Shown here: positions 2,801 to 27,553 of the stretch, one piece after another | Numbering within the stretch: position 1 is the first letter of the stretch | Layout of the letters: every line of letters begins with the position of its first letter | From: Bacteroidetes bacterium GWF2_41_31 | GTDB lineage: Bacteria; Bacteroidota; Bacteroidia; Bacteroidales; F082 | Assembly: GCA_001769215.1 (NCBI GenBank) | Contig: MEOL01000051.1 | Coordinates: 1-53,840, forward strand | Direction: 5' to 3' | DNA length: 53,840 bases | The notes under the pieces: generated by a model | Told to the model about the DNA's origin: nothing | The model's input: the letters and a program-made list of their open reading frames with translations, nothing else | Databases searched by the model: none | Position numbers and translations under genes: made by a program

Positions 2801-2866
2801 AAAAAAACCGCCTACTACCCAACTCGTGAGATTAGGCGGGGTAAACCAAATTTCCTGCCTTTGATT
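2801..2866 (-). promoter_or_regulatory. Leader element copy A: GGCAGGAAA stem-loop plus terminator-like hairpin
   Basis: Read on the minus strand, AATCAAA and TTTGGTT pair around a GGCAGGAAA loop (2866-2844). A hairpin follows with arms CCGCCTA (2839-2833) and TAGGCGG (2814-2808) and seven T's (2807-2801). It lies between the stop of the 2918-6709 gene and the start of the next adhesin. The 18-base loop of the second hairpin is identical to that of copy B, although the rest of the leader has diverged. It may be an intergenic terminator or an attenuator. I found no TAnnTTTG promoter between it and the upstream gene. Confidence 0.6.
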
Positions 2867-2917
2867 TAAACATCTATTTGAAATGATCCCTTTTTCAAGT
2901 GTTGTATAGTTCATATA

Positions 2918-5900
2918 TTAAAACTTCTTCTCAAGTTTTTCTAACCTTTGTATGATTTCTGTATTCATTTTTTTAAGCAACAAGTTTTCCTCTTCCAGTT
3001 CAGCATTCTTGCTGCTCAATTCCTGCACTGCCTTTACCAGGGGCACCACAAACTCGGCATAGCGGAGGCCATAATGTGAGTTGTCGTTGTTAGGTTTGTC
3101 AACGCCGTGAAAATCAAAGTTTAATGAATTGGCAGCTGCCTCAACTTCCTGAGCAATGAAGCCAATTTGTACTTCTGCTGCTTTCAACTGTTCACTGTTT
3201 TTGAGACGCAATGAATCAGGTGTTTTGGTAAACCCGGCGATGGCATCCATATCCAAATGATAAGTTACCGGGCGAAGTTTCATGATGAAATCGAGCCCGG
3301 CTACATTTTCCTTCACATCGGTTTTAAAGCGGCCATCGCTCACATTGGTCCAGTTGGTGTAGCCTCCAATAGAGGTAACGCTTGTGTGGCCGATGCGTGC
3401 CTGATTACTAGCCGATATATTTGCATAAGCTCCCAATGCTGTAGAATTTACAAAACTGCTTCCATTGTAAAACGCCTGATACCCAAGTGCTGTATTATTA
3501 TATCCATCAGTATTGTTGTAAAGTGAATTAGTCCCCATTGCTGTATTATCCCTTCCTGTGGTATTTGAGGAGAGAGAATAATATCCATAAGCGGAATTTA
3601 AGTATCCGGTGGTGTTTTGGAGGAGAGAACTATAACCATTAGCAGTGTTCTGGTATCCATCTGTGTTGGAGTATAGAGATTTATTACCATTCGCGGTGTT
3701 AGAGTTTCCTGTAGTGTTATAGTAGAGAGATCGAAATCCATTAGCGGTGTTCTGGTATCCATCTGTGTTGGAATATAGAGATTGGGAACCATTAGCGGTG
3801 TTCCAGTTGCCCGTGGTGTTGGAGTAGAGGGATTCATAACCATTTGCGGTGTTGTAGGATGCTGTGGTGTTGGAGTAGAGAGATTGAAGTCCATTCGCGG
3901 TATTGTAGTATCCTGTGGTGTTGGAGTGGAGAGAATAATATCCATTCGCGGTGTTGTCGTATCCTGTGGTGTTGGCATTGAGAGATTCAAATCCATTCGC
4001 TGTGTTGGAGTATCCTGTGGTGTTGAAGGAGAGAGAATAATATCCATTCGCGGTGTTGTAATTTCCCGTAGTGTTGGAGTAGAGAGATTCATATCCATTC
4101 GCGGTGTTGTAATTTCCTATGGTGTTGGAGTAGAGAGATTGATAACCATTAGCGGTGTTGTTGAATCCTGTGGTGTTGGAGTAGAGAGAATTATTTCCAT
4201 TCGCGGTGTTGGAAGATCCTGTGGTGTTGGAGTAGAGAGATTGATAACCATTCACGGTGTTGTCGTTTCCTGTGGTGTTGGACCGGAGAGAATACATACC
4301 ATTAGCGGTATTTCGGACTCCCGTGGTGTTGAAGTAGAGAGATTGATAACCATTCGCTATGTTGTTGTTTCCCGTGGTGTTGAAGTAGAGAGATTGATAA
4401 CCAATCGCGGTGTTGTTGTTTCCCGTGGTGTTGGAGTAGAGAGATTGATAACCATTTACTGTGTTTCGGACTCCTGTGGTGTTGGAGTAGAGAGAAGATT
4501 CTCCATTTGCGGTGTTTTGGGATCCCGTGGTGTTGGAGTAGAGAGAATACATACCATTCGCATTGTTGTAATATCCTGTGGTGTTGAAGTAGAGAGATTG
4601 ATAACCATTCGCCGTGTTGTTATATCCTGTGGTGTTGGAGTAGAGAGATTGATAACCATTCGCGGTATTCCAGTTGCCCGTGGTGTTGGAGTAGAGGGAT
4701 TCATAACCATTCGCGGTGTTGTCGTATCCTGTAGTGTTGGAGTAGAGAGAATAAGTTCCATTAGCGGTGTTATTGGATCCTGTGGTGTTGGAGTAGAGAG
4801 AATAAGTTCCATTACCAGTGTTATAGGATCCTGTGGTGTTATAGTAGAGAGATTGAAGTCCATTCGCGGTGTTGTAATTTCCCGTGGTGTTGAAGTAGAG
4901 AGAACGCACACCATTCGCGGTGTTTCGGACTCCCGTGGTGTTGAAGTAGAGAGCATAACTTCCATTCGCGGTGTTGTAATTTCCTGTGGTGTTGTTTTTT
5001 AGAGACATATAACCATTCGCGGTGTTTTCGGAGCCTGTGGTGTTGGAATAGAGAGAATAATATCCATTCGCGGTGTTGTAATTTCCTGTGGTGTTGGAGT
5101 AGAGAGTATACACTCCATTCGCTGTGTTGGAGTATCCTGTGGTGTTGGAGTAGAGAGATTGAAGTCCATTCGCGATGTTAGAGAATCCTGTGGTGTTGGC
5201 ATAAAGGGCTTGATAACCATTCGCGGTGTTGGAGTATCCCGTGGTGTTGGAGTAAAGAGATTGACAACCATTCGCGGTGTTCCAACTTCCAATTGTATTG
5301 GCAAACAAAGCTTTTGATCCGACTGCTGTATTTTCCACACCATCATAGCTACCACTTGCCCCTAAGCCGTTTTTCCACAACGCAGAATCCCCTATTGCGA
5401 CCAAATTGCTATTTACGGTATTATAATAGAGTGCTTCATTTCCAATAGCTACATTAGAATGTGCCGTTGAATTATAATAAAGTGTTTCTTTTCCCAGAGC
5501 AACATTCCCGTTGCCGGTTGACCAATAAAGTGCTTTATAGCCAATGGCAGTATTGTCACTTCCTGTTTGGTTAACGGCCAGTGAACTATTCCCCATGGCC
5601 GTATTATTTGATCCTGTAGTGTTACCGGTAAGTGCCCTAGAACCGCTAGAGGTATTATAATTACCTGTGGTATTATGGCTTAATGACTCAGTGCCGAATG
5701 CGGCAATTTCTGACCCGGTAGTATTTGAGTATAGGGTATGATATCCAACTGCAGAATTTCTATATCCGGTTGTATTTGAATACATTGATTTTGATCCGAT
5801 GGCAGTATTATAAATTGATTCAAAGGTATAAGTAGCTCCTGTACCATTATTATATAAAGCCGAATCCCCTATTGCGACCAAATTGCTTAGTGTAGTATTT

Positions 5901-6709
5901 GAATAGAGAGCCTTCGGCCCAATACCAACATTTGAATGAGCCTCAGAATTAGAATAAAGGGCATGATTGCCAATGGCAGTATTATTTGATCCTGTAGTGT
6001 TAAAAAAAAGTGCCAATGAACCTACTGCCATATTTTCATTTCCGGTAGTATTAAAAAAAAGTGAAGAAGCACCTACTGCTGCATTGTTGGTTCCGGAAGT
6101 ATTTAAAAATAGTGAAGTATATCCTAAAGCTGTATTATATGATCCGGTGGTATTGCTTTGAAGTGTTGATCCACCAAATGCAGCATTCTGCACTCCGGTG
6201 GTATTTGAACTTCCCGAAAAATAACCTACTGACGAATTATAGGTATTTGCCTGCGTTGATGCCGGCCCTGCACCTTCACCAATGAATACGCTTTTACCAT
6301 TGTTGTTAACCAGCAGTCGTCCCTTATCCATCACAAAATATTCCGTGCCGGCCATGTCGAACCTGATCTTGTCATCGTTGGCACTTTCTTCTACCTGGAT
6401 TTTGGTGTTCCCATCAGCATCCTGAAGTTTGTTGGGAGTGCCTGAACTCAAATCTGTCCAGGTTGAACCATTGTAGAACCAAAAACCTCCGGTTGTTGTA
6501 TCAAAAACCAGTAAACCCGTTGCCGGTGAGGCAATTGCGTTGCGTTGTGTGGACGTCATCCGGGGAATCAACATGCCTTTGTCGGTGCTTTGAACATGGA
6601 GCATGGACGATGCAGCCGCTTCGGTCCCGTCGCCATTGATGGCTACCTGCGCGATGGTAAGGCTTGTCACGAAAAGCATGGCCAGAAATAGTACAACAGT
6701 TTTAGTCAT
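2918..6709 (-). CDS. Giant YadA-head-like repeat adhesin with C-terminal S74 chaperone domain
   Basis: This 1263-residue protein begins with a signal peptide (MTKTVVLFLAMLFVTSLTIAQ). A short head domain follows (to about residue 150), then a long run of 17-residue repeats. The first part is diverged (NTAIGxxALYxNTTG). The second part is 35 consecutive units of the form NTANGxxSLYSNTTGxx. About 150 C-terminal residues form an intramolecular chaperone (peptidase S74) domain, with DGRFKTDVKEN, a GFIAQEVE motif and a final coiled coil (EEENLLLKKMNTEIIQRLEK). In this family the repeats form a beta-roll fibre and the chaperone drives trimerisation, sometimes cleaving itself off. No T9SS type A tail is present, so the export route beyond the Sec signal is unclear. 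It is divergent from the sensor kinase at 7009. Confidence 0.9.
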   Translation of the reverse strand: MTKTVVLFLAMLFVTSLTIAQVAINGDGTEAAASSMLHVQSTDKGMLIPRMTSTQRNAIASPATGLLVFDTTTGGFWFYNGSTWTDLSSGTPNKLQDADGNTKIQVEESANDDKIRFDMAGTEYFVMDKGRLLVNNNGKSVFIGEGAGPASTQANTYNSSVGYFSGSSNTTGVQNAAFGGSTLQSNTTGSYNTALGYTSLFLNTSGTNNAAVGASSLFFNTTGNENMAVGSLALFFNTTGSNNTAIGNHALYSNSEAHSNVGIGPKALYSNTTLSNLVAIGDSALYNNGTGATYTFESIYNTAIGSKSMYSNTTGYRNSAVGYHTLYSNTTGSEIAAFGTESLSHNTTGNYNTSSGSRALTGNTTGSNNTAMGNSSLAVNQTGSDNTAIGYKALYWSTGNGNVALGKETLYYNSTAHSNVAIGNEALYYNTVNSNLVAIGDSALWKNGLGASGSYDGVENTAVGSKALFANTIGSWNTANGCQSLYSNTTGYSNTANGYQALYANTTGFSNIANGLQSLYSNTTGYSNTANGVYTLYSNTTGNYNTANGYYSLYSNTTGSENTANGYMSLKNNTTGNYNTANGSYALYFNTTGVRNTANGVRSLYFNTTGNYNTANGLQSLYYNTTGSYNTGNGTYSLYSNTTGSNNTANGTYSLYSNTTGYDNTANGYESLYSNTTGNWNTANGYQSLYSNTTGYNNTANGYQSLYFNTTGYYNNANGMYSLYSNTTGSQNTANGESSLYSNTTGVRNTVNGYQSLYSNTTGNNNTAIGYQSLYFNTTGNNNIANGYQSLYFNTTGVRNTANGMYSLRSNTTGNDNTVNGYQSLYSNTTGSSNTANGNNSLYSNTTGFNNTANGYQSLYSNTIGNYNTANGYESLYSNTTGNYNTANGYYSLSFNTTGYSNTANGFESLNANTTGYDNTANGYYSLHSNTTGYYNTANGLQSLYSNTTASYNTANGYESLYSNTTGNWNTANGSQSLYSNTDGYQNTANGFRSLYYNTTGNSNTANGNKSLYSNTDGYQNTANGYSSLLQNTTGYLNSAYGYYSLSSNTTGRDNTAMGTNSLYNNTDGYNNTALGYQAFYNGSSFVNSTALGAYANISASNQARIGHTSVTSIGGYTNWTNVSDGRFKTDVKENVAGLDFIMKLRPVTYHLDMDAIAGFTKTPDSLRLKNSEQLKAAEVQIGFIAQEVEAAANSLNFDFHGVDKPNNDNSHYGLRYAEFVVPLVKAVQELSSKNAELEEENLLLKKMNTEIIQRLEKLEKKF
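3497..5281 (-). repeat. 35 tandem in-frame 51-base repeats (17 residues each)
   Basis: The block is exactly 35 x 51 bases. Each unit encodes NTANGxxSLYSNTTGxx; 33 units have the NTANG form or a close variant, and the last two are NSAYG and NTAMG. The framework is nearly constant at the DNA level, while residues 6-7 and 16-17 of the unit vary strongly (YQ, YE, MY, LQ, VY, NN; YS, NY, NW, VR, SE). Because 51 is a multiple of three, gain or loss of units keeps the frame. Confidence 0.93.
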
Positions 6710-6755
6710 CGTTTATGGGTTTTTGATTTAGAAATGCTTTTATTTAAAGAAAATG

Positions 6756-6822
6756 AAAAAAACCGCCTACTACCCAACTCGTGAGATTCGGCGGGTTAAA
6801 CCAAATTTCCTACCTTTGATTT
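6756..6822 (-). promoter_or_regulatory. Leader element copy B: GGTAGGAAA stem-loop plus terminator-like hairpin
   Basis: On the minus strand AATCAAA and TTTGGTT pair around GGTAGGAAA (6822-6800). The next hairpin has arms CCGCC (6794-6790) and GGCGG (6767-6763) and a run of seven T's (6762-6756). It lies within the predicted leader of the 35-repeat adhesin, more than 45 bases before the ATG and well downstream of the predicted promoter at 6879. A terminator-like structure inside a leader suggests attenuation; this is inference. Confidence 0.6.
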
Positions 6823-6878
6823 TATCTTTGTTCATTTAATATGCGTATATTTCTGGTTACCAGCAATAAAACATAGCG

Positions 6879-6905
6879 CAAATGTATAGGGGCATTATTT
6901 CCCAA
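6879..6905 (-). promoter_or_regulatory. Predicted promoter of the 35-repeat adhesin
   Basis: The minus strand carries TACATTTG (6886-6879), a perfect match to the Bacteroidota -7 consensus TAnnTTTG. A TTG (6905-6903) lies 16 bases upstream, slightly closer than usual. Transcription would start near 6872 and give a leader of about 160 bases that contains element B. Confidence 0.5.
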
Positions 6906-6951
6906 AAAAGCCATATTCTAAATTCGGTTGGTTTTGGCAAGGATTTGGCCG

Positions 6952-6984
6952 TTTTGGTTTTGTTTTCGGTTTTTATGTACTTTG
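6952..6984 (+). promoter_or_regulatory. Possible promoter of the sensor kinase gene
   Basis: TTTTG (6952-6956) is followed after 21 bases by TACTTTG (6978-6984), one base short of TAnnTTTG. A start site near 6991 fits the ATG at 7009 and would exclude the farther in-frame ATG at 6928, which lies upstream of this promoter. Confidence 0.35.
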
Positions 6985-7008
6985 CAACCCTCTATTTTAT
7001 CGCTTTTT

Positions 7009-9132
7009 ATGGTTAAAATTGCTTGTAAATTACTGGCGCTTGTTGCCTCGATTGTTTGTGGTCAGGTAGCTTTTTCACAAAGCGGGATAAACGACAGCCT
7101 GGTTACCTTGTTATCATCACGAAGTGGACCGGAGAAGGCATTGCTTTTCAACCAACTGGCTGATGGGCTGACAAAAACGAATCCCCGGCAAGCCATCCTC
7201 TGGTCCGACTCCAGCCTAAACCTGTTGTCAAAATTTGAGTGGTCCAAAGAAAGAATACATGCCTTTTCAAATAAGGCCTATGGCTATTTCAATTTAAAGA
7301 ATTATGACTCCTCTCTGATCATGATGAAAGAAGGGCTGAACTATGCCAAACAATTTAAGGAATGGAAAAGCGAAGCCACCATGCAGGGACAGATGGGTAT
7401 GTTTTTCCTTCAAAAAGGGGAGTTTGACAGTTCATTGGTGTACAACATTAAATCCATTGCCCTGCTTAAAAAGGTTTACGAATCAGCCGAAGATACCAGC
7501 CAGCTTCACTTGATGAATATAAGCAAAGCACTTGGCAACACAGGCCAGATTTTTATCCGAAAAGGCGATTATGAAATGGGCTTTCATTATTTTGTAGATG
7601 CATTGAAATACAGGGAACTGGCCAAAGCACCTCCCGAATCGATGGCCAAATTAACCACCAATATTGCAGGTTTATATGCTTATTTGAAGGATTATGAAAA
7701 TTCGCAGAAATATTACCTGCAAACCCTGTTACTTTATGAGAAAATCAACGACAGGGCCATGATGGAAATCGTATATGGAAATTTGGGAATTGTCGAGAAA
7801 AACCTGGGAAACAACGACAAAGCCATTCATTATTACACACTTGCGTTGAAACTGGATGAAGAACTGGGAAATGAAGAACAAAAAGTGAACAACCTGTGTA
7901 ATCTGGCCAAACTGTATCTGGATGAAGGCGATTTGGATCGGGCAACTTTATCCTACCATCAGGCACTGGCTTTGGAAAAAATGATTTCAAGTAAATTTAC
8001 ATTGGCAGAGTTGCATTTGAACATGGGATTGATTTACCTGAAATCGAACCAAAATCAACTGGCCGGGAAACATTTGCTTAAAAGCCTTGGTGTAGCCGAA
8101 ACAGAAGGCATGAACACGCTGATTTACAAGATTGAAGAAGCTTTGTCGCAGGTTTACAACAACACAGGAAATTATAAGCAAGCCTATTACTATCATGTGA
8201 GCTACCACAACCTATACGACAGCATCAACAACGAAAACAGCCGCAACCGACTGTCGGAACTTCAAACCCGGTTCGAAACCGAGAAAAAAGAGAAGGAAAT
8301 ATTGAGCCTCACAGCAGAAAAAACGGAACAAAAACTGGCCATTATAGAGCAAAAATCAAACCTCACCCGACAAAGAATGATCATTTTCACCATTTTACTC
8401 GTTCTGTTCCTGTCGGCAGGATTGGCATACTTTCTTTTTATAAGATACCGGTTGAAGCAAAAAAACAAACACATCGAACTGGAAAATCAAAACCTGCAGA
8501 TTGAAAGCCGCCTTTTGCGTTCTCAAATAAACCCCCATTTTATTTTTAACGCCCTCAACTCCATTCAGCATTTTGTGTTGAACAACGAAAAAACACAGGC
8601 GAGTACCTATCTGATCAAGTTCGCCAACCTCATGCGCAATGTGTTAAGCATGTCGCGTAAAGAAATGGTTTCGCTGGAAGATGACCTGGAAACGCTTAAA
8701 ATAAACCTGGAATTGGAAAAACTCCGATTAAAGGATAAATTCGATTTCGTTTTTTCAATTGATCAAAGTATTGAGCTTGATGCTATTTACATCCCTCCCA
8801 TGCTCATGCAGCCACATATTGAAAACGCCATCAAACATGGTGTTGAAAAGAAAGAGGGCGCAGGAACCATCAGGATTGAAATTTCACTGCTGGATCATCA
8901 CCTCAAATGTGTGATACAGGATGATGGAATTGGAAGAGAAAAATCTGCTGAAAAGCAAAAAAAAGGGCATGTTTCGGTGGCCGGAAAATTAACCGAAGAA
9001 AGGTTTGAAATCCTGAAAAAGAAAAGAGGAACCCATATCTCACAAGAGATTATCGACCTGAAGGACAACCATGGAAATTTCATTGGAACACGGGTTGAAC
9101 TAATTATTCCATTTGAAAAAGATCAGGCCTGA
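7009..9132 (+). CDS. TPR-containing LytS/YehU-type sensor histidine kinase
   Basis: The protein has 707 residues when started at 7009, where MVKIACKLLALVASIVCGQ forms a signal peptide. The frame is open from 6928, but those 27 residues do not look like a signal. Residues of about 60-400 form tetratricopeptide repeats that would lie in the periplasm. A coiled coil leads into one membrane segment near 459-480 (MIIFTILLVLFLSAGLAYF). The His_kinase (PF06580-type) core follows: NPHFIFN with the phospho-acceptor His near 510, then an ATPase domain with PHIENAIKHG near 602 and DDGIG near 637. Such kinases normally signal to LytTR regulators, and one is encoded at 16618-17361, the far end of a block of exported-protein genes. 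The TPR region probably senses a protein or cell-wall cue; this is inference. Confidence 0.9.
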   Translation: MVKIACKLLALVASIVCGQVAFSQSGINDSLVTLLSSRSGPEKALLFNQLADGLTKTNPRQAILWSDSSLNLLSKFEWSKERIHAFSNKAYGYFNLKNYDSSLIMMKEGLNYAKQFKEWKSEATMQGQMGMFFLQKGEFDSSLVYNIKSIALLKKVYESAEDTSQLHLMNISKALGNTGQIFIRKGDYEMGFHYFVDALKYRELAKAPPESMAKLTTNIAGLYAYLKDYENSQKYYLQTLLLYEKINDRAMMEIVYGNLGIVEKNLGNNDKAIHYYTLALKLDEELGNEEQKVNNLCNLAKLYLDEGDLDRATLSYHQALALEKMISSKFTLAELHLNMGLIYLKSNQNQLAGKHLLKSLGVAETEGMNTLIYKIEEALSQVYNNTGNYKQAYYYHVSYHNLYDSINNENSRNRLSELQTRFETEKKEKEILSLTAEKTEQKLAIIEQKSNLTRQRMIIFTILLVLFLSAGLAYFLFIRYRLKQKNKHIELENQNLQIESRLLRSQINPHFIFNALNSIQHFVLNNEKTQASTYLIKFANLMRNVLSMSRKEMVSLEDDLETLKINLELEKLRLKDKFDFVFSIDQSIELDAIYIPPMLMQPHIENAIKHGVEKKEGAGTIRIEISLLDHHLKCVIQDDGIGREKSAEKQKKGHVSVAGKLTEERFEILKKKRGTHISQEIIDLKDNHGNFIGTRVELIIPFEKDQA

Positions 9133-9325
9133 TTTTAGCTTGTATTATTCCTGAGCAACTTCGAAATTTTCAAATTTGAACGTGCCTGCCGGCCAGCTTC
9201 ATCTTTTTCTTCAGGACTCTTTAAAATTTTAAGCTTCACAAGCCGCGACCCTGATATTATTTGCTAAAGTATAATCTAAAAGATGGGTTAATTTATAAGC
9301 TTTAGCTAAAAAAACCAATCCAGAA

Positions 9326-9368
9326 CCCCTACCAAATAGTATAGGTAAGCCCCTACACATATAGGTAG
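9326..9368. promoter_or_regulatory. Tandem pair of CCCCTAC / TATAGGTA motifs, possible operator
   Basis: CCCCTAC (9326-9332) with TATAGGTA (9340-9347) is followed at once by a second CCCCTAC (9350-9356) with TATAGGTAG (9360-9368). Each unit is an imperfect inverted repeat (CCTA/TAGG) and the two units form a direct repeat. The layout resembles operators of dimeric regulators; NarL-type proteins, for example, bind TACC-like half-sites. Which regulator binds is unknown. Confidence 0.35.
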
Positions 9369-9554
9369 TTGACTGCCAATGCTTTATAATTTAGTTTTAC
9401 GCCCTGTACAGCAACAGGTAGAATGGCTATGCCTCAATACTATTAGTCTATAAAAATGTCATGCAAAAATTAATTTGAAACATGAGCAAACAACCAGGTC
9501 AATTCTTTCGGATACACAACATTTTTTATTTAGGAACCAACAGGTTCATTTTAT

Positions 9555-9600
9555 TGGCCACCCCGGGTTCATTAACCTGTTTTCCCGCCCGGGGTGGCCA
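9555..9600. repeat. Perfect 13-base inverted repeat, GC-rich hairpin
   Basis: TGGCCACCCCGGG (9555-9567) pairs perfectly with CCCGGGGTGGCCA (9588-9600) across a 20-base loop in otherwise AT-rich DNA. No clean T-run follows, so a simple terminator is doubtful. It could be a REP-like element. Confidence 0.6.
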
Positions 9601-9796
9601 TTGGCTAAAAAATCTTATTTTTGGAAAAACTACCACAGAAGTTTGTTGGTTATAGTAGTTGGGGTTGAAGGCGAAGGTAAAATGAAAGGTTCAGTTTCTA
9701 AAAGAATTCTATTGGAAAACGAACAATACATTACATAATAAAATTTTACCGATTGAGTAAGGTTTATCGATCATTAGTAATTAAAATAACAAGATT

Positions 9797-10926: not shown

Positions 10927-10942
10927 TGCTTAATTTTACATT

Positions 10943-10980
10943 CAATCTACCCTATAAAATGTATGGGGTAGATTGATTTT
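10943..10980 (+). terminator. Rho-independent terminator after the orphan T9SS tail
   Basis: CAATCTACCC (10943-10952) pairs with GGGTAGATTG (10966-10975), and ATTTTATT follows. It lies 17 bases after the stop codon at 10926. Confidence 0.7.
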
Positions 10981-11088
10981 ATTCATGTGCATGCGAAAAA
11001 CATACTTGTGATTGATCGCAATAATATGCTTAGGCAAATTTGCGTTACATTTTTATTACCATTTTTCTGCAAGTAAAAAACAAAAAAA

Positions 11089-16617: not shown

Positions 16618-17361
16618 GTGATAAAAGTTGCCATTATAGACGATGAACAGGATAGCCGGAACACCCTTCGACTGTATTTAAATGAGTTATATCAGGATAT
16701 AGAGGTAGCCGGAGAAGCTGATGATTTAGAAACGGGGTTGGCTTTAATTAAATCGACCAATCCTGATCTTGTTTTCCTCGACATCAACATGCCGGATGGA
16801 TCGGGTTTCGACTTGCTCGAAAGGCTCCCCCATAAAAACATCAACGTCATCTTTGTTACTGCTTACGACCAACACGCCATCAGGGCCTTCCGCTATAGCG
16901 CCATCGATTTTTTATTGAAACCCGTTGACCCTGAAATGCTGGTTAAAGCCATTGAAAAATTCAGAAAAAAGGTGGACTTTTCAAGCCTGCAGCAACGATT
17001 AGTGACGCTTCTGGCTAACAAAAACACACCCAAAAAAATTGCACTGCCAACCACCGGAGGCTACAAATTTGTATTAGCTGAAAACATCCGCCATTGTGTT
17101 TCGGAAGGAAATTACACCACTTTTTTCCTTTACAATGGAGAGAAAATTTTGGTATGCTATCCGCTGAAGGAGTATGAAGAGCTTTTGGAAGGAGACAATT
17201 TTTATAGAGTCCACCAATCGCACCTGATCCACCTTAAATACGTAAAAGAGTACAAAAAAGGAGAAGGTGGCTCCGTTATTCTGGACGATAACACCGAAAT
17301 CCAAATTGCCAGACGTAGAAAAGAAGGCTTTTTGTCGGCCATGATGAATTATGGTAGTTGA
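16618..17361 (+). CDS. LytTR-family response regulator
   Basis: This 247-residue protein starts at a GTG (16618), which puts the beta1 strand IKVAIIDDE at the correct N-terminal position. Receiver residues are all present: acidic pair Asp8/Asp9, phospho-acceptor Asp55 (LVFLDINMPDGSG), Thr81 and Lys101 (LLKPVD). The C-terminal half is a LytTR DNA-binding domain (CVSEGNYTTFFL, then YRVHQSHLIHLKYVKEY and IQIARRRKEGF). Such regulators pair with LytS/YehU-type kinases, making the kinase at 7009-9132 the likely partner, even though T9SS genes now lie between them. It may control neighbouring surface-protein genes; this is inference. Confidence 0.92.
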   Translation: MIKVAIIDDEQDSRNTLRLYLNELYQDIEVAGEADDLETGLALIKSTNPDLVFLDINMPDGSGFDLLERLPHKNINVIFVTAYDQHAIRAFRYSAIDFLLKPVDPEMLVKAIEKFRKKVDFSSLQQRLVTLLANKNTPKKIALPTTGGYKFVLAENIRHCVSEGNYTTFFLYNGEKILVCYPLKEYEELLEGDNFYRVHQSHLIHLKYVKEYKKGEGGSVILDDNTEIQIARRRKEGFLSAMMNYGS

Positions 17362-17458: not shown

Positions 17459-17490
17459 TTGCTTTTCTGCTTTTAATGTTCGTATGTTTG
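17459..17490 (+). promoter_or_regulatory. Predicted promoter of the dockerin-like secreted protein
   Basis: TTG (17459-17461), 21 bases, then TATGTTTG (17483-17490), a perfect Bacteroidota -7 match. Transcription would begin near 17497, leaving a leader of about 65 bases that contains element C. Confidence 0.6.
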
Positions 17491-17503
17491 CACCCAATAA
17501 AGC

Positions 17504-17529
17504 TGACCAAATTTCCTACCTTTTGTTAG
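17504..17529 (-). promoter_or_regulatory. Element copy C: GGTAGGAAA stem-loop, opposite to the downstream gene
   Basis: On the minus strand AACAAAA, the loop GGTAGGAAA and TTTGGTC make an imperfect version of the conserved stem-loop, and the following CAGC matches copy E. No GC-rich hairpin with a T-tract follows. It lies in the predicted leader of the 17563 gene but points the other way, so it is either an antisense element, a DNA-level site, or a decayed copy. Confidence 0.4.
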
Positions 17530-17562
17530 TTATTTAACTAAATACAAAAAAATGGTTGCTTT

Positions 17563-19176
17563 ATGAAAAAAGTCTTTTTGATAGCATTCCTGTTCGGGAG
17601 TGCATTTTCAGTTTATTCACAGTTAGTACTTTCCAGTGGCTCCCAATTGGTGGTCAATAGCGGTTCTGTTGTGGTTGCCAATGACATTACCTGTTCGGGA
17701 GGAACCATCAAAAACGATGGCGAAATCACTATTTTAGGCGATGTAACCAACAACAGTGGCGCCCTGATGGATGCAACCTCCACAGGAACGGTTACCTTTG
17801 AAGGAACTTCGGCACAGGAAATCACCGGAACGGCTTCCTCCACTTTCTATGGAACCCTCGACATCAACAATGCCACAGGTGTTGCTATTACAAATACCAC
17901 CACCGGGGCCGATCAAATCATTAACGGAACACTTAATTTTACCAGTGGAAAGCTCACCTTAAATGGGTTTAACTTAATGATTGGAGCAAGTGATCCAACC
18001 GGAGCAAGCACAACATCTTTCATTGTAACCAACAGTACAGGAAGTGTTAAAAGAAGTGTTCCTGCAGACGGCTCCACCAACGTCATCTATCCCATAGGAA
18101 ACAGCGCCTACAATCCAATCACATTACAAAACAGTGTCTCTGCTACTACTGATAACTACAGCGTCAGGGTCGCCGATAGCAAACCGGCGGGTTTCTCTGG
18201 TACAACGCATATCGTTGATCGTTCATGGGTGGTTGGTGAAGATGTTGCCGATGGCTCTGATCTTACGACCACCTATCAATGGAACGTTGGTGAAGAGTTA
18301 ACCAATTTTGATAGATCAGCAAGCACAATTGGCGTTACCTCTGACAATGGTACAACGGTATCATGGGGAAGTAATACCAGTGCAACAGGCAGTAATCCTT
18401 ATACCAATTCAAGCTCTGGAATTACCTCAACCGGAACGCTGATGGTGGGCGACTACTTTTATAGTGGATTGGTGATTGACCTTCAGGCTTTTTTGGCCGG
18501 GGCCTACAATACCACCAACCACAACATGGACAACACACTGAATTCCATCCTCCCCCTGACCGACCCTTATGGATTGACTACAACTGTAGCCTCCGTTCCT
18601 GTAACGGCCGTAGATTGGATAAAAATTGAGTTGCGGGATGCAGGAAACCATGCAACAGTGCTTCACAGTTTCGCACGTTTTATCGACCAGAACGGACAAA
18701 TCATTAATGAAGACGGAACCGATTGTAAAATGACAGGGGTGGCTGCTGGCTCCTATTATGTAGCCATACAACACCGCAACCATTTTGGGGTGGTATCCAC
18801 TTCCACCGTGAATTTAGCCGGTTCACCAACTTTAACTTTTGTAGGAGCTCAAGCTACTGCCTGGCAAGACGGCACCATAATTACAAATGCTGCCATGAAG
18901 GAAGTGGAAACCAATGTGTTTGCTTTGTGGGACGGAGATGCCAATGGGGATGGAGAGGTAGCCTACAACGGTGCAGGCAACGATCGTTCGGCTGTTTTAA
19001 CAGAGGTCGGAGTTGGCACACCTGGTAATACAGTATTAGATTCATACTCAGCAAATGATGTAAATATGGATGGGGATGTGATATACAATGGTGCAGGCAG
19101 CGACAGGAGTTCAATACTTTCTGTTGTCGGTGTTTCAACCCCGGGAGTGGTATTTTCAGCACACATGCCTGAGTAA
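17563..19176 (+). CDS. Secreted beta-rich protein with C-terminal dockerin-like repeats
   Basis: This 537-residue protein has a signal peptide (MKKVFLIAFLFGSAFSVYSQ). An N-terminal beta-helix-like region follows (SGTVVxNNGxITxxGDV-type strands), then a beta-sandwich-like middle. The last 80 or so residues hold two calcium-binding dockerin-like repeats, GDANGDGEVAYNGAGNDRS near 456 and DVNMDGDVIYNGAGSDRS near 500. It ends in SAHMPE without a standard T9SS type A tail. In Bacteroidota such paired repeats are common at the C-termini of very large exported proteins. It is 31 bases upstream of the next exported protein and probably forms an operon with it and the tiny 21478 gene. Confidence 0.75.
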   Translation: MKKVFLIAFLFGSAFSVYSQLVLSSGSQLVVNSGSVVVANDITCSGGTIKNDGEITILGDVTNNSGALMDATSTGTVTFEGTSAQEITGTASSTFYGTLDINNATGVAITNTTTGADQIINGTLNFTSGKLTLNGFNLMIGASDPTGASTTSFIVTNSTGSVKRSVPADGSTNVIYPIGNSAYNPITLQNSVSATTDNYSVRVADSKPAGFSGTTHIVDRSWVVGEDVADGSDLTTTYQWNVGEELTNFDRSASTIGVTSDNGTTVSWGSNTSATGSNPYTNSSSGITSTGTLMVGDYFYSGLVIDLQAFLAGAYNTTNHNMDNTLNSILPLTDPYGLTTTVASVPVTAVDWIKIELRDAGNHATVLHSFARFIDQNGQIINEDGTDCKMTGVAAGSYYVAIQHRNHFGVVSTSTVNLAGSPTLTFVGAQATAWQDGTIITNAAMKEVETNVFALWDGDANGDGEVAYNGAGNDRSAVLTEVGVGTPGNTVLDSYSANDVNMDGDVIYNGAGSDRSSILSVVGVSTPGVVFSAHMPE

Positions 19177-19207
19177 TAGATTTTTAAAGAAAATAACAAA
19201 TTTAAAT

Positions 19208-21457: not shown

Positions 21458-21477
21458 CCTATAACGACATGTGTCTT

Positions 21478-21711
21478 ATGAAGAAGAAAATAGTTTCCGC
21501 CCTGCTAGTCGCTTCACTCCTCCTGTTCCCCTTAATTTCCATGGCCGAAACCACAGGACCGGGTAACCCTCCGGGAGAGCCCGGCGGAGGTGATGTTCCC
21601 ATTGGCGGTGGTGCCCCCATCGGGGGGGGAAGCCTGATTTTAATGGGAATGGCGGCGGCCTATGGAGTACGTAAACTGTATTTGATAAAAAAAGAACACC
21701 TGGAAGAATAA
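21478..21711 (+). CDS. Tiny PID-CTERM-like sorting-signal protein
   Basis: The best start is the ATG at 21478 (77 residues); an in-frame ATG at 21469 adds only MCL. A signal peptide (MKKKIVSALLVASLLLFPLISMAE) is followed by a short Gly/Pro linker and a C-terminal segment VPIGGGAPIGGGSLILMGM, then AAAYGVRKLYLIKK. This matches the layout of the PID-CTERM sorting signals of Bacteroidota (VPIDGG, a glycine-rich hydrophobic helix, YGVRK), here with Gly replacing Asp. Nearly the whole mature protein is the sorting signal. It follows the 19208 gene by 20 bases, so it is probably in the same operon. Its role, perhaps as an anchor or a small surface peptide, is unknown. Confidence 0.7.
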   Translation: MKKKIVSALLVASLLLFPLISMAETTGPGNPPGEPGGGDVPIGGGAPIGGGSLILMGMAAAYGVRKLYLIKKEHLEE

Positions 21712-22111
21712 CCCAATCATGTCATTTTAAAAGGTCCAGGAATTTGGTTACATTAAAAAATACAGCTGTCAGATCTTAGTGTGACCTTTAAAAATTTGTG
21801 ATTTGATTTAAAGTTAATTACAGATTCCATCCCTATTCAAAAATTCCCGTTGGCATCTCTGTGACTTCTTTACTCAGCTTTGTGTAACAACTTATGAGCT
21901 ATGACACCAAGAACCACAAAGAAGCTACAAGGTGACACAGAGAATAAAATTTAGTTATATTTCATTAACTATCAAATGTAAGCACTCAGAAAAACACATG
22001 AGAAACTTGAGTCATGAATATTGTATTTGTATTTCACTTATATTATATTTGTGACCGTTATATATTTATTATCTCAATGGTTCTCGTTTTTTAACACCAA
22101 AAAGATCGCTC
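21712..22111. other. 400-base intergenic stretch
   Basis: No gene is seen. It contains an imperfect inverted pair at about 21855-21944 (TCTCTGTGACTTCTTT against AAAGAAGCTACAAGG and GACACAGAGA), of a type scattered in many bacterial genomes, and the promoter at 22021-22051. Confidence 0.6.
22021..22051 (+). promoter_or_regulatory. Predicted promoter of the subtilisin-like protease
   Basis: TTG (22021-22023), 20 bases, then TATATTTG (22044-22051), a perfect match in sequence and spacing to the Bacteroidota consensus. The ATG is 60 bases downstream. Confidence 0.65.
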
Positions 22112-24682
22112 ATGAAAAAATCAGTAGTGCTCCTTTTGCTTATGTTTTGTGCCATGATAGTCGCACAGGCCCAACAAGTTACAAAACATGATAAGTTAAA
22201 TAGTCTTTCGACCGAATATTTTCAGGCATTTGAAGAAGGCAAACAAAGGGCCATTGATTATGCCCGGGCGAACAACATTCCCATGCGCATCGAAACCGAC
22301 AGCGTGTTGATGGAACTCATCAATATCGATGAACGCGGAAGGCCTCAATATTATACCACTTTCAATGCCAACGCAGCAGCCACTTCATCCACCAATGAAG
22401 TTTACAGCGGCGGTGCAGCTGGATTAAGCCTGAGTGGTGCCGGGGTTACCGTTTGCGAATGGGATGGTGGCACCATCCGGACAACCCACCAGGAATTTGA
22501 TACGCGGGCCACCAACATTGATGCCAGTGCTGTTAGTGGGCATTCTACCCATGTGGCTGGAACCATCATGGCATTCGGAGTCAATTCGGCTGCCAAAGGC
22601 ATGGCTTTTGCGGCCGAACTGAAAGCCTACGACTGGGATTATGATAACTCGGAAATGGCCACCGAAGCGGCCAATGGAACCCTGATTAGTAATCACTCTT
22701 ATGGCTTTGTCAGGGGATGGTATTGGAATGGTTCTGCCAATGTTTGGAATGGAGATCCGGCTATCAGTATTTTAGAGGACTATCTTTTCGGGTTTTATGA
22801 TATATACGCGAAAAACTGGGATGAAATAGCCACCAATGCACCCTATTATTTGATTGTTAAATCGGCGGGGAACGACAGAGGGGACAGTGGAAATGGAACT
22901 TATCCTCCGGATGGTCCCTATGATTGCATCCCACAAAAAGGAGTGGCCAAGAATATTCTTACTGTAGGCGCAGTAAATGATATTACTGCTGGATATTCGC
23001 AACCCTCCGATGTGGTGATGAGCAGTTTTAGTAGTTGGGGACCTGCCGATGATGGCAGGATAAAACCGGATATTGTGGCCAATGGCGTCAACCTGACATC
23101 TGCTTACAGCAGCGCTGATGACGATTATGAAGTATTAAGTGGCACCTCCATGTCGGCACCTGCCACCACCGGATCGCTTGCCTTGTTAATTCAACATTAT
23201 GAAAATGTAAAGGGTTCAGGAATGAAAATGCTTTCTTCCACTTTGAAAGCGCTGGTGCTGCATACAGCTGATGAATCAGGAACCAATGATGGCCCGGATT
23301 ATGAATTTGGATGGGGATTGTTGAATACCCAATCGGCAGCAGCCAAAATCACCGAAGACCAGACTACAGATGTCATTTCAGAGCATGTACTGGTTAATGG
23401 TGAAACCTATACCCGCAACATCACCACCACGGGAACCAATCCCATCCGGGTAACCATCGTGTGGACCGATCCTCCCGGAACGCCACCGTCCGCTGCCCTC
23501 GATCCTGCTGATCCCATGCTCGTCAACGACCTGGATTTGCGTATTACCGAAAGTTCTAACACTTACTATCCCTGGAAACTGGATAAAGACAATCCTTCAA
23601 ATGCTGCTACTCACGCTGCCGAAAACAATGTGGACAATGTGGAAATGGTGGATATCGCAACGCCCGTTACATCCACCACTTACACCATCACCGTGGATCA
23701 TGATGGAACACTGGCTTCACCCCAGGCATTTTCCCTGATCATCAGTGGTGATATTGACAATGCAGTGGCTCCGGTGGCTGATTTTTATACCAACAACACA
23801 AACCCGGGTGTCGATCAGCCGATAAATTTCACAGATGTTTCGGCCAATATACCTTCATCATGGCTATGGTCCTTTAATCCAACTACAGTCAAATATGTCA
23901 ATAGCAGCTCCTCCACATCCCAAAACCCTGAAGTAGAGTTTCAGGAAACAGGGATTTATGAAGTGGTACTTTACACTTCAAATGCCTATGGAAACGATAC
24001 TGAAACCAAGAGTGGTTATATTACGGTAGGTGTTGCACCTACGAATTATTGTACAGCCAGCGGAACTGGTAATATTTACATTGAAGATGTGCAAATGGGA
24101 ACAATCGCCAATTTAAACACAGGAAATGACGGATATACTGATTATACTAACCTAAGTACCGACGTAGTTGTCGGTAGTTCTTATAGTATTTCTGTCACTT
24201 TTGGCGCTGCATATTTAGATGATAATCTAAGTGTACTTATCGACTGGAACCGAGATGGGGATTTTAATGATGTCAATGAAAACCCGGTTTGTCTAAGTGT
24301 AACGGCATATACTGAAACAGAAACAATTATAGTTCCTACGACAGCAAGCATTGGATCCACTAGAATGCGTATTCGAAATAACCATGATGGCAGTTCATGT
24401 CTTCCATGTAACGAATCATATTGGGGCGAAGTAGAAGACTACACCCTCAACATACTGCCTGCCAGCACTACCTGGAATGGTACCACCACCAACTGGAATG
24501 ATGCTTCCAACTGGCCTGATGGAGTGATTCCAAATTTATCTTATGAAGTAACCATTCCAACAACCCCTTCAGGTGGTAATTTTCCTGAAATTCAGGTAGG
24601 TACAAATGCCAAATGTTACAGCATCACACTACAAAATGGGGCCACCATCACCATAAACGGAACATTGGAGGTGGACAAATAA
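22112..24682 (+). CDS. Secreted subtilisin-like (S8) protease with PKD and GEVED domains
   Basis: This 856-residue protein has a signal peptide (MKKSVVLLLLMFCAMIVAQAQ). The catalytic triad is visible: Asp118 (CEWDGG), His144 (GHSTHVAGT) and Ser346 (SGTSMSAPATTG), with the oxyanion Asn in SAGND. A beta-sandwich of the type that follows many S8 domains comes next (VNDLDLRI). Then come a PKD-like domain (about 553-645), a GEVED domain (about 645-777, ending in GEVEDYTLNI) and a short terminal segment (WNGTTTNWNDASNWPDG to TITINGTLEVDK). No T9SS type A tail is present; the protein stops where related proteins usually continue into a beta-helix. The same terminal module and the same downstream element are shared with the next gene. 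It probably degrades extracellular protein. Confidence 0.9.
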   Translation: MKKSVVLLLLMFCAMIVAQAQQVTKHDKLNSLSTEYFQAFEEGKQRAIDYARANNIPMRIETDSVLMELINIDERGRPQYYTTFNANAAATSSTNEVYSGGAAGLSLSGAGVTVCEWDGGTIRTTHQEFDTRATNIDASAVSGHSTHVAGTIMAFGVNSAAKGMAFAAELKAYDWDYDNSEMATEAANGTLISNHSYGFVRGWYWNGSANVWNGDPAISILEDYLFGFYDIYAKNWDEIATNAPYYLIVKSAGNDRGDSGNGTYPPDGPYDCIPQKGVAKNILTVGAVNDITAGYSQPSDVVMSSFSSWGPADDGRIKPDIVANGVNLTSAYSSADDDYEVLSGTSMSAPATTGSLALLIQHYENVKGSGMKMLSSTLKALVLHTADESGTNDGPDYEFGWGLLNTQSAAAKITEDQTTDVISEHVLVNGETYTRNITTTGTNPIRVTIVWTDPPGTPPSAALDPADPMLVNDLDLRITESSNTYYPWKLDKDNPSNAATHAAENNVDNVEMVDIATPVTSTTYTITVDHDGTLASPQAFSLIISGDIDNAVAPVADFYTNNTNPGVDQPINFTDVSANIPSSWLWSFNPTTVKYVNSSSSTSQNPEVEFQETGIYEVVLYTSNAYGNDTETKSGYITVGVAPTNYCTASGTGNIYIEDVQMGTIANLNTGNDGYTDYTNLSTDVVVGSSYSISVTFGAAYLDDNLSVLIDWNRDGDFNDVNENPVCLSVTAYTETETIIVPTTASIGSTRMRIRNNHDGSSCLPCNESYWGEVEDYTLNILPASTTWNGTTTNWNDASNWPDGVIPNLSYEVTIPTTPSGGNFPEIQVGTNAKCYSITLQNGATITINGTLEVDK

Positions 24683-24718
24683 GCTATTCAAAATTTAGCT
24701 GTTCTTTTGCAGCTATAA

Positions 24719-24784
24719 TTACCAAAAGGTAGGAAATTTTGGTTCTGGCGGGTTTTCAGTTAAAAACTGAAAACCCGCTTTTTT
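24719..24784 (+). terminator. Element copy D: GGTAGGAAA stem-loop plus strong terminator
   Basis: ACCAAAA (24721-24727) pairs with TTTTGGT (24737-24743) around GGTAGGAAA. A perfect 14-base stem follows, GCGGGTTTTCAGTT (24748-24761) with AACTGAAAACCCGC (24765-24778), then a run of six T's. It lies 38 bases after the protease stop and is oriented with that gene, so it is a transcription terminator with an extra conserved stem-loop in front. Confidence 0.75.
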
Positions 24785-24831
24785 GTTCATATTGCAAAGA
24801 ACTATAAGCAATGAAAGAACGACCAAATGAT

Positions 24832-24839
24832 TAATTTTG
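24832..24839 (+). promoter_or_regulatory. Possible -7 promoter element
   Basis: TAATTTTG matches TAnnTTTG and lies 25 bases before the ATG at 24864, downstream of the D terminator. I see no well-spaced TTG upstream, so support is limited to the -7 box. Confidence 0.35.
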
Positions 24840-24863
24840 ACGCGTCATACATTTAATTCGATT

Positions 24864-27485
24864 ATGATAAAATTAATTAAAGTGCTAATCATATTGGTGT
24901 TCTTTCCAACCCTGGTGTTTTCACAAAAAAAGAACAACCTTCCTCATCAGGATGTCGTTTTTCCTTCGGTGATAAAAACACCCATTGGTTTTTCAATTTC
25001 TGCCCCTTTAAGGGAGGCGCCCATTTTTATTGATAAAAATGATGCTGCCGAGGAGTTTTATATGAACAAACACCGCGACAGGAAAATTAATCCCAACATT
25101 TTTCCTCCTGATTTTAATCACATGCCCATGGATCCGGGAGAGCAAACAATCATGGGCGATGTTTTATCCGGGAGATCCCTGCAAAAAAACTTTCCTGGTC
25201 AAAACAGCAGTTCCAATCCACCTGACTGTAGCGGAACTGTTGGCTCAGACTATTATTTTCAGGTGGTAAATGTAACGTACCAGATTTTCAACAAATCGGA
25301 TGGCAGTTCCGCTGCCGGACCTTCAAATCTTAATTCCATATTTAATAGTGGACTACCGGGGGCTAACTGCAATAGCGGCGATCCCATCGTACTATGGGAT
25401 GAACAGGCCGACCGTTGGCTTTTTGCTGAATTTTCACTTTGCAACTCCAACGATTATATGCTGATCGCCGTTTCAACAACAAACGATCCAACAGGAACCT
25501 GGTACTCCTGGTCGTATGATGTGGCCGATATGCCGGACTATATGAAGTTTGGTATTTGGCAGGATGGATATTACATGGCAACCAATACTTCCGCGGGCAA
25601 TGATGTGTATGTTTTCGATAGAGATGCCATGATTTCCGGCAATAGTAACCCTGTCATGATTGGTTTTGACAACCCGAACAGGCCAACTACTTTTGATGGG
25701 TTTCATTGTTTGCTTCCTTTGGATAACGATGGAGCATGGGCACCCGCCGGAACACCCGGCCAGTTTATTACCATTGCCGATGACGGCCAAAGCAATCCTG
25801 CTGACGAACTTAGGATATATGAGCTGGATGCCGACTGGACCACCCCCTCAAACTCTACCTTTTCGATGGTGCAACAGCTGCCTGTCAACGCGTTTAATGG
25901 AAACTTTTCAAATGATTGGAACAACATCCCACAACCCGGCACGGGACAAACACTGGATGGAATATCCACTGTTTTGATGTTCAGGGCGCAATACCGCAAT
26001 TTTAATGGAACCCAAAAGATCGTTTGTAACCACACCATTGCCGAAAGTGCTACCGAGTCGGCCATCAGGTGGTATGAACTCGTAAAAACCACAGGAAGTT
26101 GGTCCATTGCTCAACAAGGCACTTACAATCCAGATAACGTAAGTCGCTGGAATGGAAGTATCGCCATGAACGACAATGGCGAAATAGCCATGGGATATTC
26201 AGTTTCTGATGGCACTTCCGTTTATCCGGGTATCAGGTATTGCGCGCAAACAACCAATGCACCCCAAAACACCATGGATGTGGCCGAAGTGAGTATTTGG
26301 GATGGATCCTTCTCTCAAACTGGGATTAACCGTTGGGGTGATTATAGCAACATCAGTGTCGACCCTGGTGATGGCACCACCTTTTGGTATACCAATGAAT
26401 ACAAGAGCAGTTCGTCGCATGGTACCCGGATCGCCTCTTTTACTGTTCCCCTTTCCTGTACCCCACCAATCGTTCAGGCTGCTGCTTTTTCAGTCGCCGC
26501 AATCCACGACAACGACCTGACCATTAACTGGACCAGGGGAAATGGAACCCATGTGTTGGTCATTGCCCGTGAAGCAGGTGCGGTGAACCAAGGTCCTGTT
26601 ACGGGAACAAATTATAATGCCAATGCAAGCTTTGGCGATGGCGACGCAATTGGATCTGGCAATTATGTCCTTTATAATGGAACAGGTACCTCCGTTATCA
26701 CTACATCCCTCCAGGCAGGAACTGCCTATCATTTTTCAATCCATGAATATTCAATCAGTGATTTCTGCTATTTGTCTCCCGGCCTGACCGGAAGTGCCAC
26801 AACAAGTGGGGTTGCTCCATGTAATCTTTGTAGTTCAAATGGGAATACCGATTATGGAACAAGTACAACCTTTGTTGGTTTGAATACCCTTAGCAATGCC
26901 TCGGGGAAACCAGGAGCATACAGCGATTATACCAATTTATCAACTAATTTAGGAGTAGCAGGGACTTATCTGTTGAATGTGAGGGTGAACACAGATGGAG
27001 ATTGGACCGTCAACACCATCGTGTGGGTCGACTGGAACCAGGATTGTGATTTTAGCGATACCGGAGAAACCTATGATTTGGGAACAGCTACGAATACTGC
27101 GGATGGAGCCACCAGTTTATCGCCTCTTAGCATTACCGTGCCTGTTGACGCCCTGTTGGGCAATACCATCATGCGTGTTTCAACAAAATATTATGCTGAT
27201 CCCACCTTCTGCGAAACAGGTTTCGATGGTGAAGTAGAAGATTATACTTTAACCCTGATCCCCGGACAATCTGTATGGCTTGGAAATTCGATCGATTGGA
27301 ATTTTACCACCAATTGGGAAAACGGGATCGTGCCAACGTCTTCCTTCGTGGTTACAATTCCGGCGACTCCAACCGGGGGTCATTCCCCCACCATACCTTT
27401 TGGGATCAATGCGGTTTGTTACAGCATCACACTTGAAAACGGATCGACCATAACAATTAATGGAAATTTGGAGGTTATAAAATAG
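24864..27485 (+). CDS. Secreted GEVED-domain protein with propeller-like N-terminal region
   Basis: Started at the ATG 24864 this has 873 residues and a signal peptide (MIKLIKVLIILVFFPTLVFSQ). The in-frame TTG at 24837 would overlap the -7 promoter box and is rejected. The first 500 or so residues resemble a propeller-like secreted domain (DPIVLWDEQADRWLFAEFS, WDGSFSQTGINRWGDYS). A fibronectin-III-like segment (about 540-640) and a GEVED domain (about 652-789, CDFSDTGETYDLG to GEVEDYTL) follow. The C-terminus (CYSITLENGSTITINGNLEV) closely matches that of the S8 protease upstream. As in that gene, there is no T9SS tail and the next thing downstream is the GGTAGG stem-loop with a terminator. 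No catalytic residues were identified. Confidence 0.8.
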   Translation: MIKLIKVLIILVFFPTLVFSQKKNNLPHQDVVFPSVIKTPIGFSISAPLREAPIFIDKNDAAEEFYMNKHRDRKINPNIFPPDFNHMPMDPGEQTIMGDVLSGRSLQKNFPGQNSSSNPPDCSGTVGSDYYFQVVNVTYQIFNKSDGSSAAGPSNLNSIFNSGLPGANCNSGDPIVLWDEQADRWLFAEFSLCNSNDYMLIAVSTTNDPTGTWYSWSYDVADMPDYMKFGIWQDGYYMATNTSAGNDVYVFDRDAMISGNSNPVMIGFDNPNRPTTFDGFHCLLPLDNDGAWAPAGTPGQFITIADDGQSNPADELRIYELDADWTTPSNSTFSMVQQLPVNAFNGNFSNDWNNIPQPGTGQTLDGISTVLMFRAQYRNFNGTQKIVCNHTIAESATESAIRWYELVKTTGSWSIAQQGTYNPDNVSRWNGSIAMNDNGEIAMGYSVSDGTSVYPGIRYCAQTTNAPQNTMDVAEVSIWDGSFSQTGINRWGDYSNISVDPGDGTTFWYTNEYKSSSSHGTRIASFTVPLSCTPPIVQAAAFSVAAIHDNDLTINWTRGNGTHVLVIAREAGAVNQGPVTGTNYNANASFGDGDAIGSGNYVLYNGTGTSVITTSLQAGTAYHFSIHEYSISDFCYLSPGLTGSATTSGVAPCNLCSSNGNTDYGTSTTFVGLNTLSNASGKPGAYSDYTNLSTNLGVAGTYLLNVRVNTDGDWTVNTIVWVDWNQDCDFSDTGETYDLGTATNTADGATSLSPLSITVPVDALLGNTIMRVSTKYYADPTFCETGFDGEVEDYTLTLIPGQSVWLGNSIDWNFTTNWENGIVPTSSFVVTIPATPTGGHSPTIPFGINAVCYSITLENGSTITINGNLEVIK

Positions 27486-27490
27486 AGAAT

Positions 27491-27553
27491 GAACCAAAAG
27501 GTAGGATGTTTGGTCAGCGGTTATTGGATTTTTCCGATAGCCGCTTTGTTTTT
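27491..27553 (+). terminator. Element copy E: GGTAGGATG stem-loop plus terminator
   Basis: ACCAAA (27493-27498) pairs with TTTGGT (27509-27514) around AGGTAGGATG. The next hairpin pairs AGCGGTTATTGGA with TCCGATAGCCGCT (27533-27545), allowing two G-T pairs, and is followed by TTGTTTTTG. It starts 7 bases after the stop of the GEVED gene. Its right half is part of the 22-base direct repeat that flanks the RhuM module. Confidence 0.7.

Follow-up and report, generated by a model that had tools for sequence, protein, structure and literature searches.

A two-hairpin RNA element beside surface-protein genes of a Bacteroidales family, and a candidate complementary leader in a partner gene

Copies of the element in the window

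The window analysed here is a 53,840-nucleotide stretch of contig MEOL01000051.1 from Bacteroidetes bacterium GWF2_41_31, and it carries five related sites, A to E (Table 1). An earlier note on this DNA had listed five copies of a conserved stem-loop with position and strand, all of which have been confirmed in the sequence. In A, B, D and E, a hairpin referred to as P2 has the arms A[C/U]CAAA and UUUGGU around a loop of 8-10 nt that starts with GGUAGGA or GGCAGGA. The exchange of a C-G for a U-G pair pointed out in that note is present, with A and B reading ATCAAA/TTTGGT where D and E read ACCAAA/TTTGGT, and within a few bases 3' of P2 a second hairpin (P3) and a T-rich tract follow in these four copies and, as had also been noticed, not in C. 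When the stretch holding copy D is folded in isolation, a competing fold is preferred over P2. The bare 9-mer GGTAGGAAA has three matches in the window against 0.45 expected, at least three having been reached in 2 of 100 shuffles, which is mildly unusual.

Each copy had been said to adjoin an exported protein, and in the window this holds: A and B neighbour S74-domain proteins, D a subtilase/GEVED protein and E a GEVED protein, while the protein beside copy C has a signal-peptide-like start and belongs to no Pfam family. The S74 genes 2918-6709 and 1-2730 have near-identical signal sequences and upstream hairpin regions (B and A, respectively), in the manner of a tandem duplication. A RhuM-family gene (27705-28718, reverse strand) is convergent to copy E, so no S74 gene lies downstream of that copy.

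Table 1. Positions of the hairpins, of the partner gene and its leader, and of a recurrent open reading frame at related loci. Positions without a locus label are those of the window.
Feature	Position	Strand	Context or basis
Copy A, P2 hairpin ATCAAA-GGCAGGAAA-TTTGGT	2844-2866	-	Between S74 genes: 3' of 2918-6709, 5' of 1-2730
Copy A, P3 hairpin (2808-2840) and T-tract (2801-2807)	2801-2840	-	Sequence and fold
Copy B, P2 hairpin	6800-6822	-	Ahead of S74 gene 2918-6709; 106 nt from core to ATG
Copy B, P3 hairpin (6763-6795) and T-tract (6756-6762)	6756-6795	-	Sequence and fold
Box TATGTTTG	17483-17490	+	5' of copy C, likely promoter of the partner gene; TAnnTTTG in 14 of 14 leaders
S1, 5' strand, partner leader	17497-17509	+	Predicted fold
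Copy C, ACCAAATTTCCTACC on the gene's strand	17506-17520	+	Within the 5' leader of 17563-19176; complementary to the loop and 3' arm of P2
Predicted hairpin H2, the second in the partner leader	17521-17549	+	Sequence differs between genera
S1, 3' strand	17553-17564	+	Predicted fold; runs into start codon ATG 17563-17565
Partner gene, 537 aa	17563-19176	+	Signal-peptide-like start, no Pfam family
Copy D, P2 hairpin ACCAAAA-GGTAGGAAA-TTTTGGT	24721-24743	+	45 nt 3' of stop of 22112-24682
Copy D, P3 hairpin (24748-24778) and T-tract	24748-24784	+	Sequence and fold
Copy E, P2 hairpin, loop GGTAGGATG	27493-27514	+	14 nt 3' of stop of GEVED gene (end 27485)
Copy E, P3 hairpin (27516-27545) and T-rich tract	27516-27553	+	Sequence and fold
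ORF of ~165 aa	L076:2513-3019	-	
ORF of ~165 aa	L063:1941-2426	+	
ORF of ~165 aa	L229:2026-2517	+	
ORF of ~165 aa	L259:2559-3041	-	
ORF of ~165 aa	L259:5588-6082	-	

Folding, genomic context and distribution

An exact search of the 4.5-Mb home genome with GGTAGGAAATTTGGT returned three occurrences against none for the backwards control, and allowing one mismatch added one more true-looking copy, on contig C20; with up to three mismatches there was no excess in this genome (212 against 284 for the backwards control). A covariance model of P2, named R1, was built from 26 training rows that include A and B and exclude C, D and E. These training copies came from a fixed-word search, so the invariance of the loop is partly a product of selection. 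At E ≤ 0.01, R1 finds eight places in the home genome, namely A, B, C, D, sites on contigs C33 and C20 and two doubtful ones (C1 and C43), while copy E has an E-value of 0.136.

Applied to 20 selected genomes, namely G182 from another family and 19 members of the home family, R1 gave 158 matches at E ≤ 0.3, with up to 22 per genome; among the 150 of these that were listed, 112 lie at E < 0.01 where about 0.2 would be expected by chance, the E-values being rough. Of the 150, 132 were carried forward, holding 108 of the 112, and the other 18 comprise four at E < 0.01 (three partial matches and one of 61 nt) and 14 at E 0.02-0.3, some of these 14 being possibly real. The covariance-model search proposed in the earlier note has in this way produced many more copies beside secreted-protein genes. 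By context, the carried matches were classed as T (up to 60 nt after a stop codon), L (65-140 nt ahead of an ATG) or TL (both), and they divide into 55 T, 23 L, 18 of both kinds, 14 of class C, 14 of neither and 8 rejected. Stem counts exclude class C, the rejected rows and, by hand, G000:C1:6658, leaving 109 copies, 87 of them nonredundant.

In these 87 copies the core GGTAGGA is nearly fixed, and the one or two bases following it are variable. The third pair of the P2 stem is A-U in 71 and G-U in 16, the fourth C-G in 64 and A-U in 20, and the fifth C-G in 63, U-G in 20 and U-A in 3. Covarying arm lengths hold the loop at 8-9 nt in 85 of the 87, a tightness reached in none of 10,000 permutations, and all five GAT 3' arms stand opposite ATC 5' arms. 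With the register set on Watson-Crick pairs alone, G-U cells number 48 and A-C cells 2, which the other strand would reverse, so that this is the strand that folds. A shuffle of arms among the copies has little discriminating power (82 of 87 against 82.5; 60 against 54.7, sd 2.1), being made nearly blind by the conservation of the arms. An outer stem, P1, exemplified by GCCTCTC/GAGAGGC, is convincing in a subset of the leader copies and weak across all copies. On comparative grounds, P2-P3 is well supported as a structured RNA element.

The same counts bear on whether the sites might act as DNA, either as the operator of a LytTR two-component system or as a recombination site between gene cassettes. 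A LytTR regulator gene (16618-17361) lies near C and a kinase gene (6928-9132) near B, similar genes, judged by their ORF starts, occur near some other copies, and some genes carry copies on both sides in one orientation, as with A and B. A site of this kind is nonetheless scarcely credible, given that the G-U excess and the arm-length covariation indicate a folded single strand of one polarity and that 3'-end copies do not occupy the position of an operator. The LytTR operator was rejected on the strand asymmetry of the pairing (48 G-U against 2 A-C cells).

The copies stand in close relation to the genes around them. A mechanical ORF ends at the UAG of the loop in 14 of the 73 T and TL copies and 2-9 nt 5' of the core in a further 25. 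Simple signatures recur in the genes concerned: a start of the type 'QVAIN...SAML' is found in 30 of 41 L and TL genes, and the ends of the T and TL genes show an S74-type coiled coil (41/73) or 'ITINGTLEV' (14/73). By HMM, PF13884 (S74) is present in both window genes and in eight of ten genomes searched, including G001, where no hairpin was found. Upstream, a TAnnTTTG box is present in 7 of 16 L, 1 of 46 T and 0 of 13 TL copies, the rate in control windows being 6.4%, and in copies from G029 and G015, of the same genus, the box TACATTTGC lies ~72 nt upstream of the core.

The earlier note had proposed a structured RNA or a modular terminator class. A fixed loop, a covarying stem and a terminator-like P3 speak for this description, while the presence of the element in 5' leaders makes it more than a terminator class. 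P3 varies in sequence from copy to copy, with no shared loop by eye. For the 55 nt following P2, the predicted folding energy is under -10 kcal/mol in 93% of 86 copies and in 91% of the T copies, as against 25% of control windows, and a T-tract follows 67% of 45 T copies and 20% of control windows. These values agree with a mere modular terminator, or a 3'-end stabiliser, that has spread with surface-protein genes; such an element would not require a fixed loop, the T-tract is present in just 37.5% of the 16 L copies, and the partner leader described below would go unexplained, making this a very improbable account.

P2-P3 is dispersed, at up to about 20 copies per genome, and confined to part of one uncultured Bacteroidales family. 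In a word search, 30 of 100 family genomes matched and 19 were judged element-bearing, a status that is our reading of word and R1 matches, and the 81 genomes scored as hairpin-less were covered by the word pattern in every case and by R1 in some. Several word matches in the family were discarded as promoter-like words instead of P2. Among the R1 matches in G001, G009, G017 and G027, the 5 inspected of 11 listed contain no GGTAGGA hairpin. The expectation that copies would extend to other Bacteroidota has not been borne out. In 393 genomes of the order R1 matched 20, of which the home genome and G182 look real and the others were set aside as chance-like by inspection. The G182 copy (L268, G182:C9:24-54), in another family and at a contig end, has a convincing P2 and a second hairpin, and reflects either horizontal transfer or a misbinned contig.

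The named records behind the word matches are mostly MAGs of uncultured Bacteroidales or Bacteroidetes. A genome collection yielded 49 stretches, 41 of them copies already found; the eight outside were rejected for want of an S74 context (a Traorella MAG twice, Thermodesulfobacteriota, Nanoarchaeota, a Flavobacteriaceae MAG, Flavobacterium, Aureisphaera and Muricauda), and three stretches from a viral collection appear to represent one phage coding region and not P2-P3. The two loci of the uncultured Traorella MAG (L104 and L144) show AAAGGTAGGAAATTTGGT, then ACCTACCTT and a T-tract, a different hairpin containing the same word, and one of them lies near a possible transposase-like ORF. The comparison with Rfam, also proposed earlier, gave no family at the element: release 15 has no match in the window at the gathering score, 18 related loci gave one tRNA alone, away from the element, and at E ≤ 5 the region 2700-7000 of the window gave one weak CRISPR-repeat match (4922-4947), away from A and B.

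Copy C and the leader of the partner gene

Copy C had been taken for a weak exception; it turns out to be the most informative copy, a complementary site in the leader of a partner gene. It shares the 15 bases and has neither a well-kept stem arm nor a P3. Read from its sequence, it is a complementary site lying antisense in the leader of another mRNA, rather than a degenerate copy of P2. The box TATGTTTG ahead of it is one that we take to be a -7-type promoter box by the Bacteroidota consensus. The partner protein has a beta-rich model (pLDDT 67), for which a fold search returned no PDB match below E 0.001, and strong orthologues of its gene occur in 20 of the 100 family genomes.

The 15-nt complement is kept all but identical in 14 orthologue leaders, all from hairpin-bearing genomes, that of G083 being one base off. 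In G001, G009, G017 and G023, where no hairpin was found, the orthologue leaders have at least 6-7 mismatches to the segment; the leader in G036 likewise has 6-7 at best, yet this genome holds one hairpin copy. Two additional paralogues of the partner gene in G045 (L280 and L301) lack the complementary leader segment, and downstream of both stands a similar gene for a secreted protein. A covariance-type model of the partner leader, R2, has exactly one match in each of 14 of the 100 family genomes, all hairpin-bearing, and none in the 81 hairpin-less genomes, a co-occurrence with a Fisher p of 3e-13 when kinship is ignored. Five hairpin-bearing genomes (G024, G036, G042, G052 and G058) have no R2 match; these are fragmented drafts, so its absence from them is uncertain.

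Folds that begin at the expected start show in 10 of 13 leaders a long stem (S1) running into the AUG, together with an unpaired stretch and a second hairpin; an alignment fold of the leaders also yields S1. In the home genome, S1 is predicted to pair UAAAGC.GACCA with UGGUUGCUUUAU. The leaders of G073, G034 and G055 prefer another fold when folded alone, and for the home genus the ensemble leaves the segment's three U's unpaired only about half of the time. Over 11 distinct rows, pairing in S1 reaches 97.5%; the changes are one-sided, with no double-sided covariation, and for this reason covariation does not prove the stem. By this prediction the partner leader closes off its own start codon while AAUUUCCUACC, which complements the P2 loop exactly, stays unpaired. 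This correspondence suggests a mutual regulation of messages by base pairing.

The fit between hairpin and leader is close. The duplex with the leader of the same genome has a mean energy of -29.9 kcal/mol for the 87 P2 copies, compared to -9.9 (sd 3.0) for 5,106 control windows, and the complementarity is conserved and near the start codon of the target, as in trans-acting base-pairing RNAs. Against the partner, L copies have 0.59 mismatches in 15 (n = 17) and T copies 1.68 (n = 44), mismatches outside the core loop being frequent in the 3'-end copies. In G083, the segment with its one changed base fits the leader copy of that genome with one G-U, and for many G083 copies the duplex energy with a foreign leader is as good or better. 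A switch acting in cis found no support, a complement of the loop lying near 11.5% of the 87 copies as compared with 23% of controls.

Proposed pairing between messages and related systems

On balance, we consider it probable that adhesin RNAs pair through the P2 loop with the one partner leader, and that this probably opens its start codon. In this proposal, P2-P3 would ride on the mRNAs of S74-type and related surface proteins, in 5' leaders as well as 3' ends. The loop GGUAGGAnn would first contact the unpaired AAUUUCCUACC in the leader of the 17563-19176 mRNA or of an orthologue, whereupon the weak A-U/G-U stem of P2 would open and the duplex grow to ~15 base pairs. It would then compete for ACCA, in the upper half of S1, and a loosening of the start region of S1 would, in the presence of adhesin RNAs, most likely raise translation of the partner. 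Sequence comparison shows the element with its stem and contexts, the complementarity and the co-occurrence; S1, H2 and the exposed segment come from predicted folds. A functional pairing of P2 with the leader appears likely on this basis, and the adhesin and partner RNAs would presumably meet in the cell. The sign of the regulation is a guess; activation is favoured because the segment, ~43-57 nt upstream of the AUG, is too far away for a direct block of the ribosome.

It is also possible, and more tentatively put forward, that S74-type messages are themselves the regulators, the hairpins at their ends broadcasting adhesin synthesis to a single start-codon lock on the mRNA of a core surface protein, in a many-to-one, mRNA-to-mRNA arrangement that spans five genera and has no dedicated sRNA. 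If true, this would constitute a natural mRNA-to-mRNA network with a plain and mutable code, GGUAGGA against UCCUACC, and would show by what means one fixed partner protein and a varying set of adhesins can be kept in step. Few species of Bacteroidota have had their post-transcriptional control worked out, and R1 and R2 provide two covariance models with which further cases could be found.

The same pairing can be read in the opposite direction, with the partner leader, or a short RNA derived from it, as the regulator and the P2 hairpins as targets in attenuation or mRNA stability. One partner facing many hairpins has the usual shape of one regulator with many targets, and the leader-type copies match best, some of them having a T-tract ahead of an S74 start codon. 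Nevertheless, the leader holding the complementary segment seems to close off its own start codon. This points to the leader as the receiver, and we regard the reversed direction as unlikely.

For the pairing of adhesin messages with the partner leader, several known systems offer points of comparison. Kissing or loop-to-linear antisense regulation is represented by OxyS-fhlA and CopA-CopT, where, as proposed for P2, contact between a loop and an unpaired complementary segment can be followed by extension of the duplex; here, in contrast, many dispersed mRNA loops would face one leader, and a separate regulator RNA would be unneeded. Intrinsic (Rho-independent) terminators resemble P3 and its T-tract in about two thirds of the 3'-end copies, but have no counterpart of the fixed-loop P2. 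Flavo-1 and Bacteroidales-1, which the earlier note had named for comparison, are likewise structured RNAs of the same phylum, although nothing here matches them at the Rfam gathering score. ANTAR antiterminators consist of two hairpins with similar six-base loops, and were rejected as a model on the 8-9-nt P2 loops of 85 of the 87 copies and on P3, which shares no loop by eye.

P2-P3 would seem to belong with the base-pairing regulatory RNAs, and the nearest published case found is FopS. In the FopS/GibS work in Bacteroides thetaiotaomicron, 14 paralogous FopS sRNAs have a shared seed before the terminator and repress SusC-type mRNAs (PMC11697453). As described there, FopS is like P2-P3 in being a multicopy RNA of Bacteroidota whose members share a pairing sequence and carry a terminator hairpin 3' of it, and its targets lie near the start codons of surface-protein mRNAs, as is proposed for P2-P3 (PMC11697453). 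FopS is further described as having its seed in a single-stranded 5' stretch, as consisting of separate sRNAs with many SusC-type targets, and as repressing (PMC11697453). The pairing sequence of P2, by contrast, is a hairpin loop; P2-P3 appears to lie in mRNA leaders and 3' ends, with one complementary leader per genome; and activation is the more likely sign. A literature search found no description of P2-P3, which is the sole basis for regarding it as unpublished.

A near-fixed loop on a variable stem, with a terminator-like hairpin adjoining, is also the typical look of a site for an RNA-binding protein, which might act in termination, stability or translation while the complement in the leader had some other cause. 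A protein would be blind to the complementary strand, leaving the invariant leader segment and the co-occurrence unexplained, and the sole neighbouring gene tried for the role, encoding ~165 aa, is missing from the home genome and occurs in two hairpin-less genomes, so that we hold a protein site to be distinctly unlikely. This ORF, found in 9 of the 100 family genomes, was rejected as a cognate factor. It belongs to no Pfam family and ends at or just 5' of several S74 leader copies (Table 1), and the protein is predicted to be all-helical, in a poor model with a pLDDT of 63.
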